Shown one piece after another: positions 29,385 to 35,673 of a DNA stretch of 64,000 nucleotides (the stretch's first letter is position 1; the number at the start of each line of letters is the position of its first letter). The position numbers were made by a program, and so were the translations under genes. The notes under the pieces are model-generated. The model did not search any database, was not told where the DNA came from, and saw nothing but the letters and a program-made list of their open reading frames with translations. The stretch covers positions 620,001-684,000 of the forward strand of contig NC_013170.1 in assembly GCF_000023845.1 (NCBI RefSeq). Direction: 5' to 3'. The DNA comes from Cryptobacterium curtum DSM 15641 (GTDB lineage Bacteria; Actinomycetota; Coriobacteriia; Coriobacteriales; Eggerthellaceae).

Positions 29385-30212
29385 ATGGATCCACAAGGAC
29401 TGTGTGCTATCGCAGACGATATGCGGGTAGACATTGTCAAGATGATTGCAGAGGCAGGAAGTGGGCATCCAGGTGGATCTCTTTCCTGTATCGACATCTT
29501 GGCAGCACTGTATTTCGGGGGGGTGCTTACTCATGACCCTGAGCACCCTGATGATCCTTCTCGCGATCGGTTTATCTTAGCGAAGGGTCATGCTGCCCCT
29601 GCTTTGTATACTGCACTGGCGCATGCAGGTTATTTTCCTCGCGAAGAACTTATGACACTGCGCAAACTCGGCACGCGCTTGCAGGGTCACCCTGATTGCA
29701 GCTTGTTACCGGGCGTTGAAGTGTCAACAGGTTCGCTGGGTCAAGGGCTTTCTATCGCAGCTGGTATGGCGTGTGGCCTGCGTCTTAATGGCAGCAATGT
29801 ACACGTATTTTGCCTGTTAGGCGATGGTGAATGCGAAGAAGGTCAGGTTTGGGAAGCAGCGATGTTTGCCGCTCATGAACACCTGGGATCACTTGTTGCC
29901 ATTGTTGATGCGAATGGTCTACAGATCGATGGGGCAGTAAACGACGTCGTACAGACCGGCACTCTTTCTGATAAGTTTCATGCTTTTGGTTGGGATGTTT
30001 CCGAAGTGGATGGCAACGATGTCAAGGCGGTTAGGGATCTTTTGATGTCTTTGAAGTCATCGCCATCTAATCACCCTCAGGCAGTAATTGCCCACACTAT
30101 CAAGGGGAAGGGCGTGTCATTTATGGAAGGCCAGGCTGGCTGGCATGGTAAGGCACCCAATGCGGAAGAACTTACCCGTGCCCTTTCAGATCTCGCCCGT
30201 ACAAAGGAGTAG
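29385..30212 (+). CDS. Transketolase, N-terminal subunit
   Basis: A 275-residue TPP-binding half of a split transketolase, which moves two-carbon units between sugar phosphates in the non-oxidative pentose phosphate pathway. The sequence shows GSGHPGGSLSCIDILAALYF, then HGD-type GSLGQGLSIAAGMA, and the TPP motif LLGDGECEEGQVWEAAMFA. The pyrimidine-binding half is the next gene, four bases on, so both chains make the active enzyme. GGGAAGGA precedes the ATG. A similar split is found in many anaerobes. Confidence 0.93.
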   Translation: MDPQGLCAIADDMRVDIVKMIAEAGSGHPGGSLSCIDILAALYFGGVLTHDPEHPDDPSRDRFILAKGHAAPALYTALAHAGYFPREELMTLRKLGTRLQGHPDCSLLPGVEVSTGSLGQGLSIAAGMACGLRLNGSNVHVFCLLGDGECEEGQVWEAAMFAAHEHLGSLVAIVDANGLQIDGAVNDVVQTGTLSDKFHAFGWDVSEVDGNDVKAVRDLLMSLKSSPSNHPQAVIAHTIKGKGVSFMEGQAGWHGKAPNAEELTRALSDLARTKE

Positions 30213-30216
30213 TCCC

Positions 30217-31194
30217 ATGGTACAGTTTGCAACATCCGAACAGGCTGCTCTCAAGAAAGCTACCCGCGCTGCTTTCGGTCCAACACTAGTTGAATTGGCA
30301 AGCGCTGGCGTGCCTGTTGTGGCGGTTGATGCCGATCTTTCAGGATCGACTACCCTAAAAAAGTTTGCTGAGTCTGCCGAGGGTGCGGGACGCTTTTTCA
30401 ATGTGGGCATCGCTGAACAGAATATGATTGATGTCGCCGCCGGACTATCGTTGACTGGCAATGTCGCTTTTACTGGCAGTTTTGCTGTGTTTGGTACGGG
30501 GCGTGCCTACGATCAAATTCGTAACACGGTTTGCTATTCGCGCCTCAACGTCAAAGTTTGCCCCACGCATGCCGGTATTTCGGTTGGCCCAGATGGTGGC
30601 AGTCACCAGATGCTTGAAGATATCGCCCTTATGCGTGCCTTGCCGAATATGACGGTTTTGGTGCCTGCTGACTATGCATCTGCCCGTGCTGCTCTCAAAC
30701 TGGCAGCTACCACGCCAGGCCCTGTGTATGTACGCATGGGCCGCGCAGCGGTTCCCGCTGTATATGCCGACGAGGTTGAACTTGAATGTGGGCGCGCCTA
30801 CGTCTTGCGAGAAGGCACAGATGTCACCATTATTGCGTGCGGTGTTGAAATTCGTGAAGCACTTGCGGCTGCTGACATTCTTGAAAGGGGGGGTATTACC
30901 GCTGAGGTCATCGATGCCTTTAGCGTAAAACCCCTCGATGAACAGACTATTATTGCCAGCGCACGTAAAACAGGATGCGTTGTCGTTGCCGAAGAGCATT
31001 CGGTACATGGTGGTCTGAGTTCTGCAGTAGCTGAATTGCTTGCTGAGGAATATCCCGTTCCATGCCGTTTTGTTGCCATGCGCGACCGATTTGGCAAATC
31101 GGGTTCTTTTGAAGAGTTGATGAGCTATTTCGGCTTAGATGCGGCTGCCATTGTTGAAGCTGTGGAAAGCGTCGTTGCTCGTAAAACCCTCTGA
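30217..31194 (+). CDS. Transketolase, C-terminal subunit
   Basis: A 325-residue partner of the preceding gene. It holds the pyrimidine-binding domain (FNVGIAEQNMIDVAAGLSLTG, with the catalytic Glu, and THAGISVGPDGGSHQMLEDIALMR) and the C-terminal transketolase domain (VYVRMGRAAVP, then VVAEEHSVHGGLSSAVAE). ATG at 30217 is fixed by AAAGGAG nine bases upstream; the open frame continues upstream only as an overlap of the N-subunit gene. A DXP synthase role is excluded by the separate dxs at 1896. Confidence 0.93.
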   Translation: MVQFATSEQAALKKATRAAFGPTLVELASAGVPVVAVDADLSGSTTLKKFAESAEGAGRFFNVGIAEQNMIDVAAGLSLTGNVAFTGSFAVFGTGRAYDQIRNTVCYSRLNVKVCPTHAGISVGPDGGSHQMLEDIALMRALPNMTVLVPADYASARAALKLAATTPGPVYVRMGRAAVPAVYADEVELECGRAYVLREGTDVTIIACGVEIREALAAADILERGGITAEVIDAFSVKPLDEQTIIASARKTGCVVVAEEHSVHGGLSSAVAELLAEEYPVPCRFVAMRDRFGKSGSFEELMSYFGLDAAAIVEAVESVVARKTL

Positions 31195-31242: not shown

Positions 31243-32085
31243 GTGACGAACGCTGACATCCAAGGGGCTGCTGCTCATGCAGCTCACTCTGCGGGCGAGC
31301 GACAGAATCAAGCGAAGCAGGTGACAGCTCAGCTGTCTTCAACGCTTCCCGATCTCGACCTTGATGCAACACCGCAACCAAGCGGCACGCCGGTTATCAC
31401 ATTTGACCACGTGACGAAGGTGTACCCCGCGCAACCAAACAAGCCCGCTCTCTATGACATTTCGCTGCAGGTTTTTGCTGGTGAATTTGTCTTTCTCGTC
31501 GGCCATTCTGGCTCGGGTAAGACCACACTTACCCGCATGATCATTCGCGAAGTCAGGCCCACTGAAGGACATATCTACATCGCCGACGAGGATCTTGCAA
31601 CCATGCGTAACTGGCGTGTGCCCTACCTGCGTCGCAATATTGGCACAGTATTTCAGGACTTTAAGCTGCTTCCCAATAAGACGGTATTTGAAAATGTCGC
31701 CTTTGCATTGGAAGTTATCGGTAAGTCTCGCCATGTTATTCGCACGCAGGTACCTGAAGTACTGCGCTTGGTGGGTCTGCAGGACAAACTCGACAAACGT
31801 CCCGATCAACTTTCTGGTGGCGAGCAGCAGCGGGTGAGTATTGCTCGCGCTATTGTGAACCGTCCACCGCTTTTGGTGTGTGACGAACCAACGGGTAACC
31901 TTGATCCTCAGACATCGCGCGGCATTATGGATTTGCTTGAACGCATTAACCGTACGGGCACGACCGTGCTCGTTGCCACGCATGACCGTGAAATGGTTGA
32001 TAACATGCGTCGTCGTGTTATTGCATTGGAAAAAGGCCGTCTCACCCGCGACCAGGATAGGGGGGTGTACGGCTTCGATGTCTAG
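31243..32085 (+). CDS. ftsE: Cell division ATP-binding protein FtsE
   Basis: A 280-residue ABC ATPase of the FtsEX complex, which acts at the septum to switch on peptidoglycan hydrolases. Walker [11 protein letters not shown] (about 88-97), signature [16 protein letters not shown], Walker [14 protein letters not shown]. An N-terminal extension of about 50 residues, Ala/Gln/Pro-rich, precedes the ABC domain and is unusual. The start is GTG at 31243 with CGGAG upstream. The end overlaps ftsX by eight bases. Confidence 0.94.
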
Positions 32086-32992
32086 TTTCGCCTACTTCTT
32101 TAGCGAATCTCTTAAGGGTTTCGCGCGTAACCTTTCAACAGCGTTGGGTTCGATCGTTACGATCTTTCTTTCGCTACTGATTATTGGAATTTTCCTTATT
32201 GGCGGATTTATCGTCGATAACATTGTTAAATCCGTCGAAGATAAGGTGTCGGTGACAGCCTATATTTCTGACGATGCTTCTCAAGAAGATATCGATGCAG
32301 TTGAAAGCTATATTCGTGGCCTTGATGGGGTTGCAAAAGTTGGCTTTACCACAAAGGATCAAGCACTTGAGAACTTCAAGAATTCGATGACCGGTAACCC
32401 CGAAATTGTCGAACAGCTTGATGGTCAAAATCCGCTTCCTGCTTCGATCGATGTTGAACTTTCTGAAGCACAACAGGTTGAAACGGTGGCAAGCCAGATC
32501 GAATCGAATGCCACGTTTAAGAAGATTGCCGACAATGCCGACGATCCGTCTGATTCGCTGAAATATGGTCAGAAGACGGTCGAAAAGCTTTTCACGGTAA
32601 CCAATTACATACGCTATGTGGGTATGGCCCTAGTCGCGCTGCTGATCTTTATCGCCTTCGTATTTATCAACAATACGATTCGTCTATCGATTCTTGCGCG
32701 CCGCAAAGAGATTGCCATCATGCGTCTGGTAGGTGCTTCGAATAACTTCATTCGTGGGCCATTTTTGATGGAGGGTGCGCTCCACGCGATTATCGGTGCT
32801 GGCTTTGCCATGCTCGTGATGGAAGTACTGCATCGCGTAGCAATGCCGCAGATGCAGAGCGCACTACCGTGGCTGCCGGTGAGCGTTCCGGAATCTTCCT
32901 TCCTTATGATTTATTTGACTCTTCTGGTAAGCGGTCTGCTCATTGGTCTGCTTGGCTCCACGTTGGCTATGCGTCGTTACTTGAAGGTGTAA
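32078..32992 (+). CDS. ftsX: Cell division protein FtsX
   Basis: A 304-residue permease-like partner of FtsE with four membrane segments: one near residues 22-45, an outer domain (about 50-170), then three in the last 130 residues ([51 protein letters not shown]). The motif [26 protein letters not shown] is the FtsX/ABC2 hallmark. ATG 32078 lies inside the ftsE end, so the two are coupled. The S41-type protein that follows is the natural downstream effector position in Gram-positive genomes. Confidence 0.94.
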
Positions 32993-33034: not shown

Positions 33035-34309
33035 ATGTTGCGCAAAACGCGCGATAGCGCATCATATAGTGAAAAACACAATCTCAGGCTGATCAAATTC
33101 ATGGTCAGCCTGCTGTGCATTGTTCTTGCCTTTGTGGGTGGGTTTATCCTGCGCGGTAACGACGCGGTGCTTGATCGTTTGGGTATGCGTAATACGTCTG
33201 GTTCAGGTGACCTCAACCCCGGTATGACGGTATCTGGTAATACGTATGATTCCCTTTCAGCACGAGTTGCCGAAATACAGGGCATCTTAAATAAGGAAAG
33301 CGTCGATTCTTACGATCTCGATGCGACAACCAGCAATGTTTTAAACGCATTAACGTCCTCAACGAATGATTCGTTCGTGCATTATTACGATGCCACTCAT
33401 TACGCAACGTATCTTAAGGACGTTTCGGCAAATTATGCAGGGGTTGGCATCCTCTTTTCAGAACGCAAAGGCAAGGCATTTGCCGTTGACGTATTTAACG
33501 GGTCAGAAGCAGAGTCAGTCGGTGTGCAAGAAGGCGACTACGTCGTATCGATTGACGGCGATAGAGGAACCGATGGTGTGTGGACCGCAGCCGAAGCAAC
33601 GAAAGCGGTAACGCGCGAAGCGGGCTCTTCGGTTGTTATTACTTTTCGCCGCCCATCTAGTCCTGATGCTGATGGCGGATCTGAATATACGGTTACCTTG
33701 TCGTGCACTCGCTATGACGAACCGAATGTCACCACCGAATTGATTGATTCAGTGGGGTACATCAAGCTTACTCAGATTACGCAAAATTCTGATTCTTTGG
33801 TACTTGATGCTATCACCGACCTGGCGGACTCAGGTGCGCAGTCGTATGTGTTTGATATTCGCGATAATCCCGGCGGCTATCTCACGCAAGCGGTTGATTT
33901 GGCATCGCTTTTTGTGAAAAGCGGTATTGCTGTTCAGATTAATACCAAGAGTGCTCAAACGAACCGAACAGTTACTGGCAATACAGCTACTGATGCGCCA
34001 CTAGTCCTGCTGGTGAACAGAAATACTGCTGGTACGGCTGAGGTGCTTGCTGGTGCTCTGCAGGACAATAAACGTGCAACGCTTATTGGCGTGCAGAGCA
34101 TGGGCAAGGGGTCGGTCCAGTCTGTTAAAGAACTGTCGTTTGGTGGTGCACTGCGCTATACCTCAGCTTATTATTTGACTCCCTTAGGCTACACGATCGA
34201 CAAAGTTGGGATTGCACCTGATGTGCAGGTACAGCCTGGAGATGATGATTCGGTTGACACCCAGAAAAATCTTGCAGTCGAGACTGCTCAGTCGCTTGTG
34301 CGCGAATAG
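33035..34309 (+). CDS. S41 family processing-peptidase-like protein lacking the catalytic serine
   Basis: A 424-residue protein with one N-terminal membrane anchor (about residues 22-42), a PDZ domain (about 125-215, GVGILFSERKGKAFAVDVFNGS) and an S41 domain. The Lys of the Ser-Lys dyad is present (Lys358 in SMGKGSVQS) and so is the following Gln. The nucleophile, expected 25 residues earlier in a stretch such as NTASAAE, is Gly333 (NTAGTAE). The codon is GGT, one base from AGT (Ser). If real, the protein cannot use normal Ser-Lys catalysis, though Thr334 is next to the site. Family relatives are CtpA/CtpB. It follows ftsEX closely, so it could be a scaffold or inactive regulator in cell wall hydrolysis. 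AAAGGGGG precedes the ATG. Confidence 0.88.
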   Translation: MLRKTRDSASYSEKHNLRLIKFMVSLLCIVLAFVGGFILRGNDAVLDRLGMRNTSGSGDLNPGMTVSGNTYDSLSARVAEIQGILNKESVDSYDLDATTSNVLNALTSSTNDSFVHYYDATHYATYLKDVSANYAGVGILFSERKGKAFAVDVFNGSEAESVGVQEGDYVVSIDGDRGTDGVWTAAEATKAVTREAGSSVVITFRRPSSPDADGGSEYTVTLSCTRYDEPNVTTELIDSVGYIKLTQITQNSDSLVLDAITDLADSGAQSYVFDIRDNPGGYLTQAVDLASLFVKSGIAVQINTKSAQTNRTVTGNTATDAPLVLLVNRNTAGTAEVLAGALQDNKRATLIGVQSMGKGSVQSVKELSFGGALRYTSAYYLTPLGYTIDKVGIAPDVQVQPGDDDSVDTQKNLAVETAQSLVRE

Positions 34310-34437: not shown

Positions 34438-35673
34438 ATGAACGAAGAGCAGCTTTCATTCCTCGAAACTATGGTAGCAACACCTTCGGTAACGGGATGC
34501 GAGCACCTGGTTGCAAGTCTTGTTCGAGAGCGCTTAGCCGATGTCGCTGATGAAATCGATACCGATGTCATGGGCTCGGTGCATGCACGCGTGCGGGGGA
34601 CAGGTGTTCCCAACGACGCAGCATTATCTGCACAGACAGATGGCGGAGCTTCTGGTGAAGAAGCGGCAGGCGTGACGAATGAGGCCGAGACAGCAGGCGT
34701 GACGAATGAGACCGCTGCGGCAACAGCATCAGATGAAGTCACCGCGGCAACAGCATCAGATGAAGCAGCACCCCGTGTTCCTTCGGTTTTAATTGCTGCT
34801 CACATGGATGAGATTGGCCTTATGGTCAATTACATTTCTGACGAGGGTTTTCTCAGTGTAAAACCGGTTGGTGGTGTTGACGCTGGTCTGCTTCCTGGAT
34901 TGCGGGTGGATGTGCACACTGACGAAGGAGCCCTGCGCGGAGTTGTTGGCCGCCAACCAATTCATTTGGTACCTGCCGATGAACGCAAGCAGGTGGCTCC
35001 TTTCGAAAAGCTTGTTATTGATCTTGGTATGCCGGCTGATATGGTTAAACAGCGCGTACAGATAGGCGATACCGTAACGTACGGAGTTGGCTTTGAGCGC
35101 TTCGGCGATGGTATGGCCGTGTCGCGTGCCTTTGACGATAAAGCAGGCGTTTTTATTGGGATTGGCGTAGCGTGCGAACTGGCACGCGGTCCACGTGCAG
35201 CGGCTGATTTCATTCTTGCTGCTACCGTACAGGAAGAAATCGGTTTGCGCGGTGGACTCACGAGCGCTTACAGCGTGGATGCCGATGTGTGCCTGGCTTT
35301 CGATGTAACGCATGCCACTGATTATCCCGGTATTGATAAGGCAAAACACGGCAACATTGTCTGTGGCGGTGGACCGGTTATTGCGCGGGGTCCGAATATC
35401 AATCCTGTTGTCTTTAATCGTCTTGTCGCAGCAGCGCAGGCTGAAGGAATTGATTATCAGATAGAAGCTGAACCGGGTGTAACCGGCACCGATGCAGGGG
35501 AAATGCAGATTCAACGTGGAGGTAAAGCATGCGGATTGGTGTCGTTGCCACTGCGCTATATGCATACCCCGACGGAAGTCATCAATCTGTCCGATGTGGA
35601 TGGCTGTATTAAGCTTCTTGCGCGGTTCATTCGCGATTTAGATGCTGACGTTTCGTTTGTGCCGGGGATGTAA
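34438..35673 (+). CDS. M42 family metallopeptidase with repeat insert
   Basis: A 411-residue zinc/cobalt aminopeptidase of the glutamyl aminopeptidase/PepA-like M42 family, which forms large tetrahedral particles that trim peptides. Metal ligands: His in AAHMDEIG (about residue 121), Asp in RAFDDKAG, Glu in QEEIGLRG, Asp in AFDVTHATD, and a His near the C-terminus (YMHTP). Between the N-terminal part and the first metal His is a low-complexity insert of about 45 residues (72-116) with four nine-residue units (two of AGVTNE type, two of ATASDE type). The insert is not in the family. It lies upstream of smpB, four bases apart, and probably in one operon. Confidence 0.92.
   Translation: MNEEQLSFLETMVATPSVTGCEHLVASLVRERLADVADEIDTDVMGSVHARVRGTGVPNDAALSAQTDGGASGEEAAGVTNEAETAGVTNETAAATASDEVTAATASDEAAPRVPSVLIAAHMDEIGLMVNYISDEGFLSVKPVGGVDAGLLPGLRVDVHTDEGALRGVVGRQPIHLVPADERKQVAPFEKLVIDLGMPADMVKQRVQIGDTVTYGVGFERFGDGMAVSRAFDDKAGVFIGIGVACELARGPRAAADFILAATVQEEIGLRGGLTSAYSVDADVCLAFDVTHATDYPGIDKAKHGNIVCGGGPVIARGPNINPVVFNRLVAAAQAEGIDYQIEAEPGVTGTDAGEMQIQRGGKACGLVSLPLRYMHTPTEVINLSDVDGCIKLLARFIRDLDADVSFVPGM
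34666..34770 (+). repeat. Two tandem 27-base duplications in the M42 gene
   Basis: The 18-base word GCAGGCGTGACGAATGAG occurs at 34666 and 34693, and a 22-base word beginning GCGGCAACAGCATCAG occurs at 34717 and 34744. Both pairs have a period of 27 bases, so each keeps the frame as nine residues. Confidence 0.9.

Follow-up and report, generated by a model that had tools for sequence, protein, structure and literature searches.

The S41-family gene found immediately after ftsX in Cryptobacterium curtum DSM 15641 raises the question of whether its product, in which glycine appears where the catalytic serine of such peptidases is expected, can still cut its substrates and, if not, what the protein has been kept for. 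The window considered here corresponds to 64,000 nucleotides of the C. curtum genome (contig NC_013170.1, positions 620,001 to 684,000 of the forward strand), and includes the following features:

31243..32085, + strand: ftsE (ABC_tran match), preceding ftsX
32078..32992, + strand: ftsX (FtsX_ECD and FtsX Pfam matches; start taken from the ORF)
33035..34309, + strand: putative S41-family pseudoprotease gene, 424 amino acids (Pfam PF03572, E=3.3e-44; AlphaFold; Foldseek)
33101..33154, + strand: hydrophobic N-terminal anchor, residues ~23-40 (sequence, model helix 2-41, conservation)
33422..33718, + strand: diverged PDZ-like region, residues ~130-228 (strands in the AlphaFold model, CtpB alignment)
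33752..34231, + strand: S41 peptidase domain, residues 240-399 (Pfam PF03572)
34025..34027, + strand: Thr331 (family column counts: Thr in 109 of 110, Ser in one)
34031..34033, + strand: Gly333 (GGT), the catalytic Ser position (codon read, CtpA alignment, family column)
34100..34102, + strand: Met356, equivalent of CtpA Phe325 (family and outgroup column; PMC11021448)
34106..34108, + strand: Lys358 (AAG), the catalytic base position, 25 residues after Gly333 (kept in 109 of 110)

The open reading frame at 33035-34309 is intact and encodes a membrane-anchored S41 protein of the CtpA/CtpB type comprising, in order, an N-terminal anchor, a linker, a PDZ-like region and the S41 peptidase domain. 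The anchor, as noted in the preliminary description of this locus, is indeed present, and Arg40 at its end is invariant within the family, not so in proteins outside the family. The protein scored 150.8 bits against PF03572 (cut-off 24) and 215.5 bits against TIGR00225 (prc), slightly below the cut-off of 218.6. In the AlphaFold model (mean pLDDT 90), a helix begins at residue 334, as expected for the catalytic site, and the top Foldseek matches of this model were H. pylori CtpA, P. aeruginosa CtpA and B. subtilis CtpB. These S41A CTPs, as well as the alga D1 protease, share with the C. curtum protein the fold, domain order, NPGG loop and active-site Lys and Gln, and in B. subtilis the gene order is likewise ftsEX-ctpB (PMC5072692). 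Unlike these enzymes, the C. curtum protein lacks both the catalytic Ser and the aromatic residue before Gly-Lys, contains a diverged PDZ region and is the product of the sole S41 gene, with PF03572 being matched once in the whole genome (1,617,804 bp, one contig).

When the protein was aligned with P. aeruginosa CtpA using phmmer, no gaps were introduced at the site, and Gly333 fell opposite Ser302, a position occupied by Ser in structure 7rpq and by the engineered S302A replacement in 7rqh and 8sxe. A proper S41 alignment thus places Gly333, and no intact Ser, at the catalytic position at the N-terminus of the helix, 25 residues before the dyad Lys, as originally claimed, while the Lys itself is kept at +25. 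The Asp originally reported at +11 is found if one counts from Gly333 (Asp344), but not from Lys358, where +11 is Phe369.

Residue-level reading involved 110 of 128 family genomes with a match, the C. curtum window being counted among the 110. The family searched is the Eggerthellaceae, Actinomycetota of gut and mouth, given that Eggerthella, Gordonibacter, Slackia, Adlercreutzia and Enteroscipio were named among the relatives in the alignment search. At position 333, Ala was found in 73 loci, Gly in 26 and Ser in 11, such that Ser is absent from 99 of the 110. Elsewhere in the active site, Lys358 and Gln362 were each retained in 109 of the 110 proteins, and Glu336 and Gly280-Gly281 in all. 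The 25-residue spacing to Lys was recovered by a plain regular expression in 109 of the 110; in L075, there is one additional residue between the motif and Lys. Of 40 further members of the class, the 38 that fall outside the order all present Ser-Ala-Ser-Ala-Ser-Glu together with the Lys, and Ser was retained in four proteins from three other families of the order (L152 and L156 of f6, L153 of f26 and L158 of f27). An alignment-based scan of the collection, using peptide patterns that leave out the Ser motif, retrieved 51 S41 sequences of distant phyla, and every one of these likewise has Ser. Because Ser is universal in both the outgroup and the distant set, its loss is best considered a property of the lineage rather than noise. 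Family f5, which belongs to the same order, includes two genomes with Gly at position 333 and Asp or Ser at position 358; in both, the gene still follows ftsX. These S41 proteins (L130 and L293), without both Ser and Lys, appear to represent a more advanced dead state than do those of the Eggerthellaceae. L130 seems also to have dropped much of the PDZ region.

A second determinant of activity points in the same direction. The S302A and K327A mutants of P. aeruginosa CtpA are inactive, with F325A or G246M causing a defect nearly as strong as that of S302A (PMC11021448). At position 356, two residues before the Lys and equivalent to CtpA Phe325, Phe or Tyr was found in 38 of 38 outgroup proteins, whereas Leu, Met, Gln, Ala, Arg or Ile was found in all 110 family proteins, including the 11 with Ser and that of C. 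curtum (Met356). The equivalent of CtpA Gly246 (Gly280) is retained in the family. As for the PDZ domain, originally described as kept, it appears to persist in diverged form only: the region is folded in the model, but no Pfam PDZ match was obtained with the C. curtum protein, and two near relatives scored at or just below the cut-off, as compared to 56 bits for an active protein of the outgroup. The PDZ peptide sensor of CtpB, Arg168 (PMC3808539), corresponds to Thr193 in C. curtum, as placed via alignment with the R168A entry. Arg occupies column 193 in 37 of 38 outgroup proteins, as compared to eight of 110 family members, although this is weaker evidence since many members carry Arg one position further on. 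CtpA His84 was also considered as a third marker of lost activity but was dropped, as the outgroup mostly lacks this residue too.

The gene has nonetheless been maintained. Most close pairs of Eggerthellaceae sequences gave dN/dS values of 0.05-0.12 and a few gave 0.14-0.35, showing the gene to be under purifying selection. The family peptidase domain diverges ~1.1-1.36 times as fast as FtsX in most distance bins, and 1.7 times as fast among the closest pairs, as compared to ~0.9-1.25 times in the active outgroup, with the outgroup ratio being below that of the family in every matched bin except one small, near-equal bin. The peptidase domain of the family thus shows mild relaxation. In the same comparison, the PDZ region was not clearly faster to diverge.

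Since Ser was lost across nearly the entire family yet the gene is kept by selection, the S41 protein is probably a non-cutting regulator of wall-remodelling enzymes. We regard it as probable that the Eggerthellaceae contain a lineage-wide S41 pseudoprotease, most likely acting with FtsEX as a partner that responds to peptides without cutting them. The predicted loss of catalysis is well supported; a partnership with FtsEX, or a scaffold role, is suggested by gene order, and peptide binding by the C. curtum protein is suggested by analogy. Indeed, the pseudoenzyme option offered in the preliminary description is strongly supported by the absence of Ser, the loss of the aromatic residue at position 356 in every member and the retained constraint and ftsX linkage. 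According to this proposal, an ancestor of the family would have carried, immediately downstream of ftsX, the gene for an active peptidase of the CtpA/CtpB type. Cleavage would have been lost as Ser333 gave way to Ala or Gly, the aromatic residue at position 356 disappeared and the PDZ sensor Arg eroded, while purifying selection preserved the gene within the ftsEX operon, along with the anchor, fold, NPGG loop, Lys358 and Gln362. The protein may bind extracytoplasmic peptide tails or a hydrolase, and could then signal the bound state to FtsX and its PcsB-type NlpC/P60 hydrolases, either through its conformation or as a scaffold. In other words, the binding step would have stayed and the cutting step gone, with FtsX being the likely partner, judging by gene order. 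Counting against a pseudoprotease, the near-invariance of Lys358 and Gln362 is odd if the chemistry is gone, and position 333 still shifts among Ala, Gly and Ser.

Examination of the gene neighborhood revealed the S41 gene to begin 42 bp after the end of ftsX. In every one of the 110 family loci, which represent more than 40 genera, it is the next gene downstream of ftsX and shares its strand, as would befit an FtsEX partner encoded with ftsEX. Still, the S41 gene also follows ftsX in the 38 active-type outgroup relatives, such that adjacency alone shows no new role in FtsEX function, the gene order being ancestral. This, together with sister families that retain ftsX without an S41 gene, would be in line with a pseudoprotease having a separate chaperone-like or peptide-binding role in the envelope, its position next to ftsX being merely inherited. 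Such a role is, however, unlikely, given the unbroken linkage across the family and its persistence in f5 despite loss of the whole dyad. In some family members (e.g., G110 and G131), ftsX is present and the S41 gene absent, and S41 function is thus not indispensable. In sampled genomes of the order with no S41 match (L265-L281), ftsX is often followed by what, by eye, is an RNase R-like gene, or by others. As such, related lineages present an active enzyme (the outgroup), a presumably dead enzyme (the Eggerthellaceae and f5) or no enzyme (the S41-less families) at one locus. By table count, 121 of the 125 family genomes having a match contain a single S41 gene, additional matches being weak; with PF03572 being single-copy, no active S41 paralogue is there to compensate for the loss.

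The codons used at position 333 address how Ser was lost. Ser is encoded by TCN in the outgroup and in 10 of the 11 Ser-bearing family members, and Ala by GCN. Accordingly, while GGT is one transition from AGT in terms of codon distance, as originally pointed out, the codon probably changed from TCN through GCN to GGN. The 11 Ser-bearing members are dispersed inside Ala/Gly clades. Parsimony called for 18 changes when unconstrained, as opposed to 30 when regain of Ser was forbidden, and likelihood models allowing regain were better by 4.1 log units for two extra parameters, with Ser and Ala fitting about equally well as the family-root state. Whichever root state is assumed, catalysis appears not to be held by selection, whereas the protein is. 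The scattering of Ser among clades, the single step between TCN and GCN, the better fit of regain and the retention of Lys358 are what one would expect of a mixed family in which catalysis is dispensable yet possible and single-base substitutions switch members between an active Ser form and an inactive Ala or Gly form. This explanation is nevertheless quite improbable, as all 11 Ser-bearers also lack the aromatic residue at position 356 and Arg at position 193.

Less probable still is a peptidase that remains active by means of another nucleophile, be it Thr331 or a Ser or Thr at position 332 or 334, even if Thr331 and Lys358 are almost invariant. The neighboring Thr originally put forward (Thr334) is found in only 11 of the 110 proteins, 48 of the 98 Ser-lacking members checked contain no Ser, Thr or Cys at positions 332-335, and no new hydroxyl or thiol has become fixed next to Lys358. 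Thr331 is the one hydroxyl of the motif that stays constant in the family; its equivalent in P. aeruginosa CtpA S302A is a Ser that is still present, yet the mutant is inactive (PMC11021448), and the aromatic residue at position 356 is lost in any case. Finally, it was raised originally that Ser may have been lost recently, or that the GGT codon could reflect a sequencing error. The single-codon difference is all that speaks for a change confined to C. curtum, and both options can be dismissed, since the nearest relatives (~70% identity) present Ala and the other family loci are for the most part also without Ser.

Returning to the pseudoprotease as a candidate partner of FtsEX, likely targets of FtsEX were considered. 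In other bacteria, FtsEX controls coiled-coil proteins of the PcsB type. The C. curtum genome encodes two adjacent NlpC/P60 proteins with a PcsB coiled coil (L292:2301-4715; G000:C1:1490500-1498000), PcsB-type coiled-coil proteins were found in 76 of 76 family genomes and no M23/LytM domain was matched in the C. curtum genome. The FtsEX target in Eggerthellaceae thus probably corresponds to PcsB-type hydrolases. No shared C-terminal tail fitting the CtpB PDZ preference was found on the PcsB-type hydrolases of relatives; one of the C. curtum proteins ends in Tyr-Ala. The C. curtum pair also present twin-arginine-like signal peptides, with one containing a long Ser/Asn-rich linker.

A CTP without Ser could plausibly serve as a peptide-operated switch, given that CtpB S309A retains peptide binding, with binding alone driving the active conformation (PMC3808539), and that in the complex of CtpA S302A and LbcA, peptide is present in the tunnel (PMC11021448). 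Active CTPs degrade, and hence control, wall hydrolases (PMC6050968). FtsEX-dependent hydrolases are elsewhere controlled by extracytoplasmic or membrane partners without catalytic activity, namely EnvC, with its degenerate LytM domain, and SweD/SweC of B. subtilis (PMC7668044, PMC6705773). The C. curtum protein is unrelated to these in fold, presenting the S41 fold rather than the coiled coil and LytM/M23 domain of an EnvC-type adaptor, and its partnership with FtsX is suggested by gene order. A more specific version of the preferred reading, put forward tentatively and with some doubt, is that the protein is a family-wide, non-cutting, peptide-gated switch built into FtsEX, the S41 counterpart of EnvC, in which control of hydrolases by binding would have replaced their degradation, the latter being how CtpA acts in P. 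aeruginosa.

Pseudoproteases are well known in animals but, to our knowledge, few cases have been described in which an entire bacterial family has one as its fixed state. MamO, a repurposed serine protease, and CspC/CspA of C. difficile likewise derive from serine peptidases and have been retained for functions other than proteolysis (PMC4794232, PMC12880746), although they belong to peptidase families other than S41 and act in other pathways. The open-access literature searched yielded no description of an S41 pseudoprotease encoded next to ftsEX. If the proposed reading is correct, then CTPs would have a proteolysis-independent job in the FtsEX pathway, related lineages would offer a clean natural experiment, with active enzyme, dead enzyme or no gene at the same locus, and annotation as "S41 family peptidase" would mislead in the case of Eggerthellaceae gut bacteria.

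Two other observations concern the flanking genes in the window. Upstream of ftsE, transketolase is encoded as two adjacent ORFs corresponding to its N- and C-terminal halves (29385-31194). Downstream, 128 bp separate the S41 stop codon from the start of a gene encoding an M42 aminopeptidase (34438-35673), the product of which contains an Ala/Thr/Glu-rich, repeat-like insert near the N-terminus (residues ~60-115).
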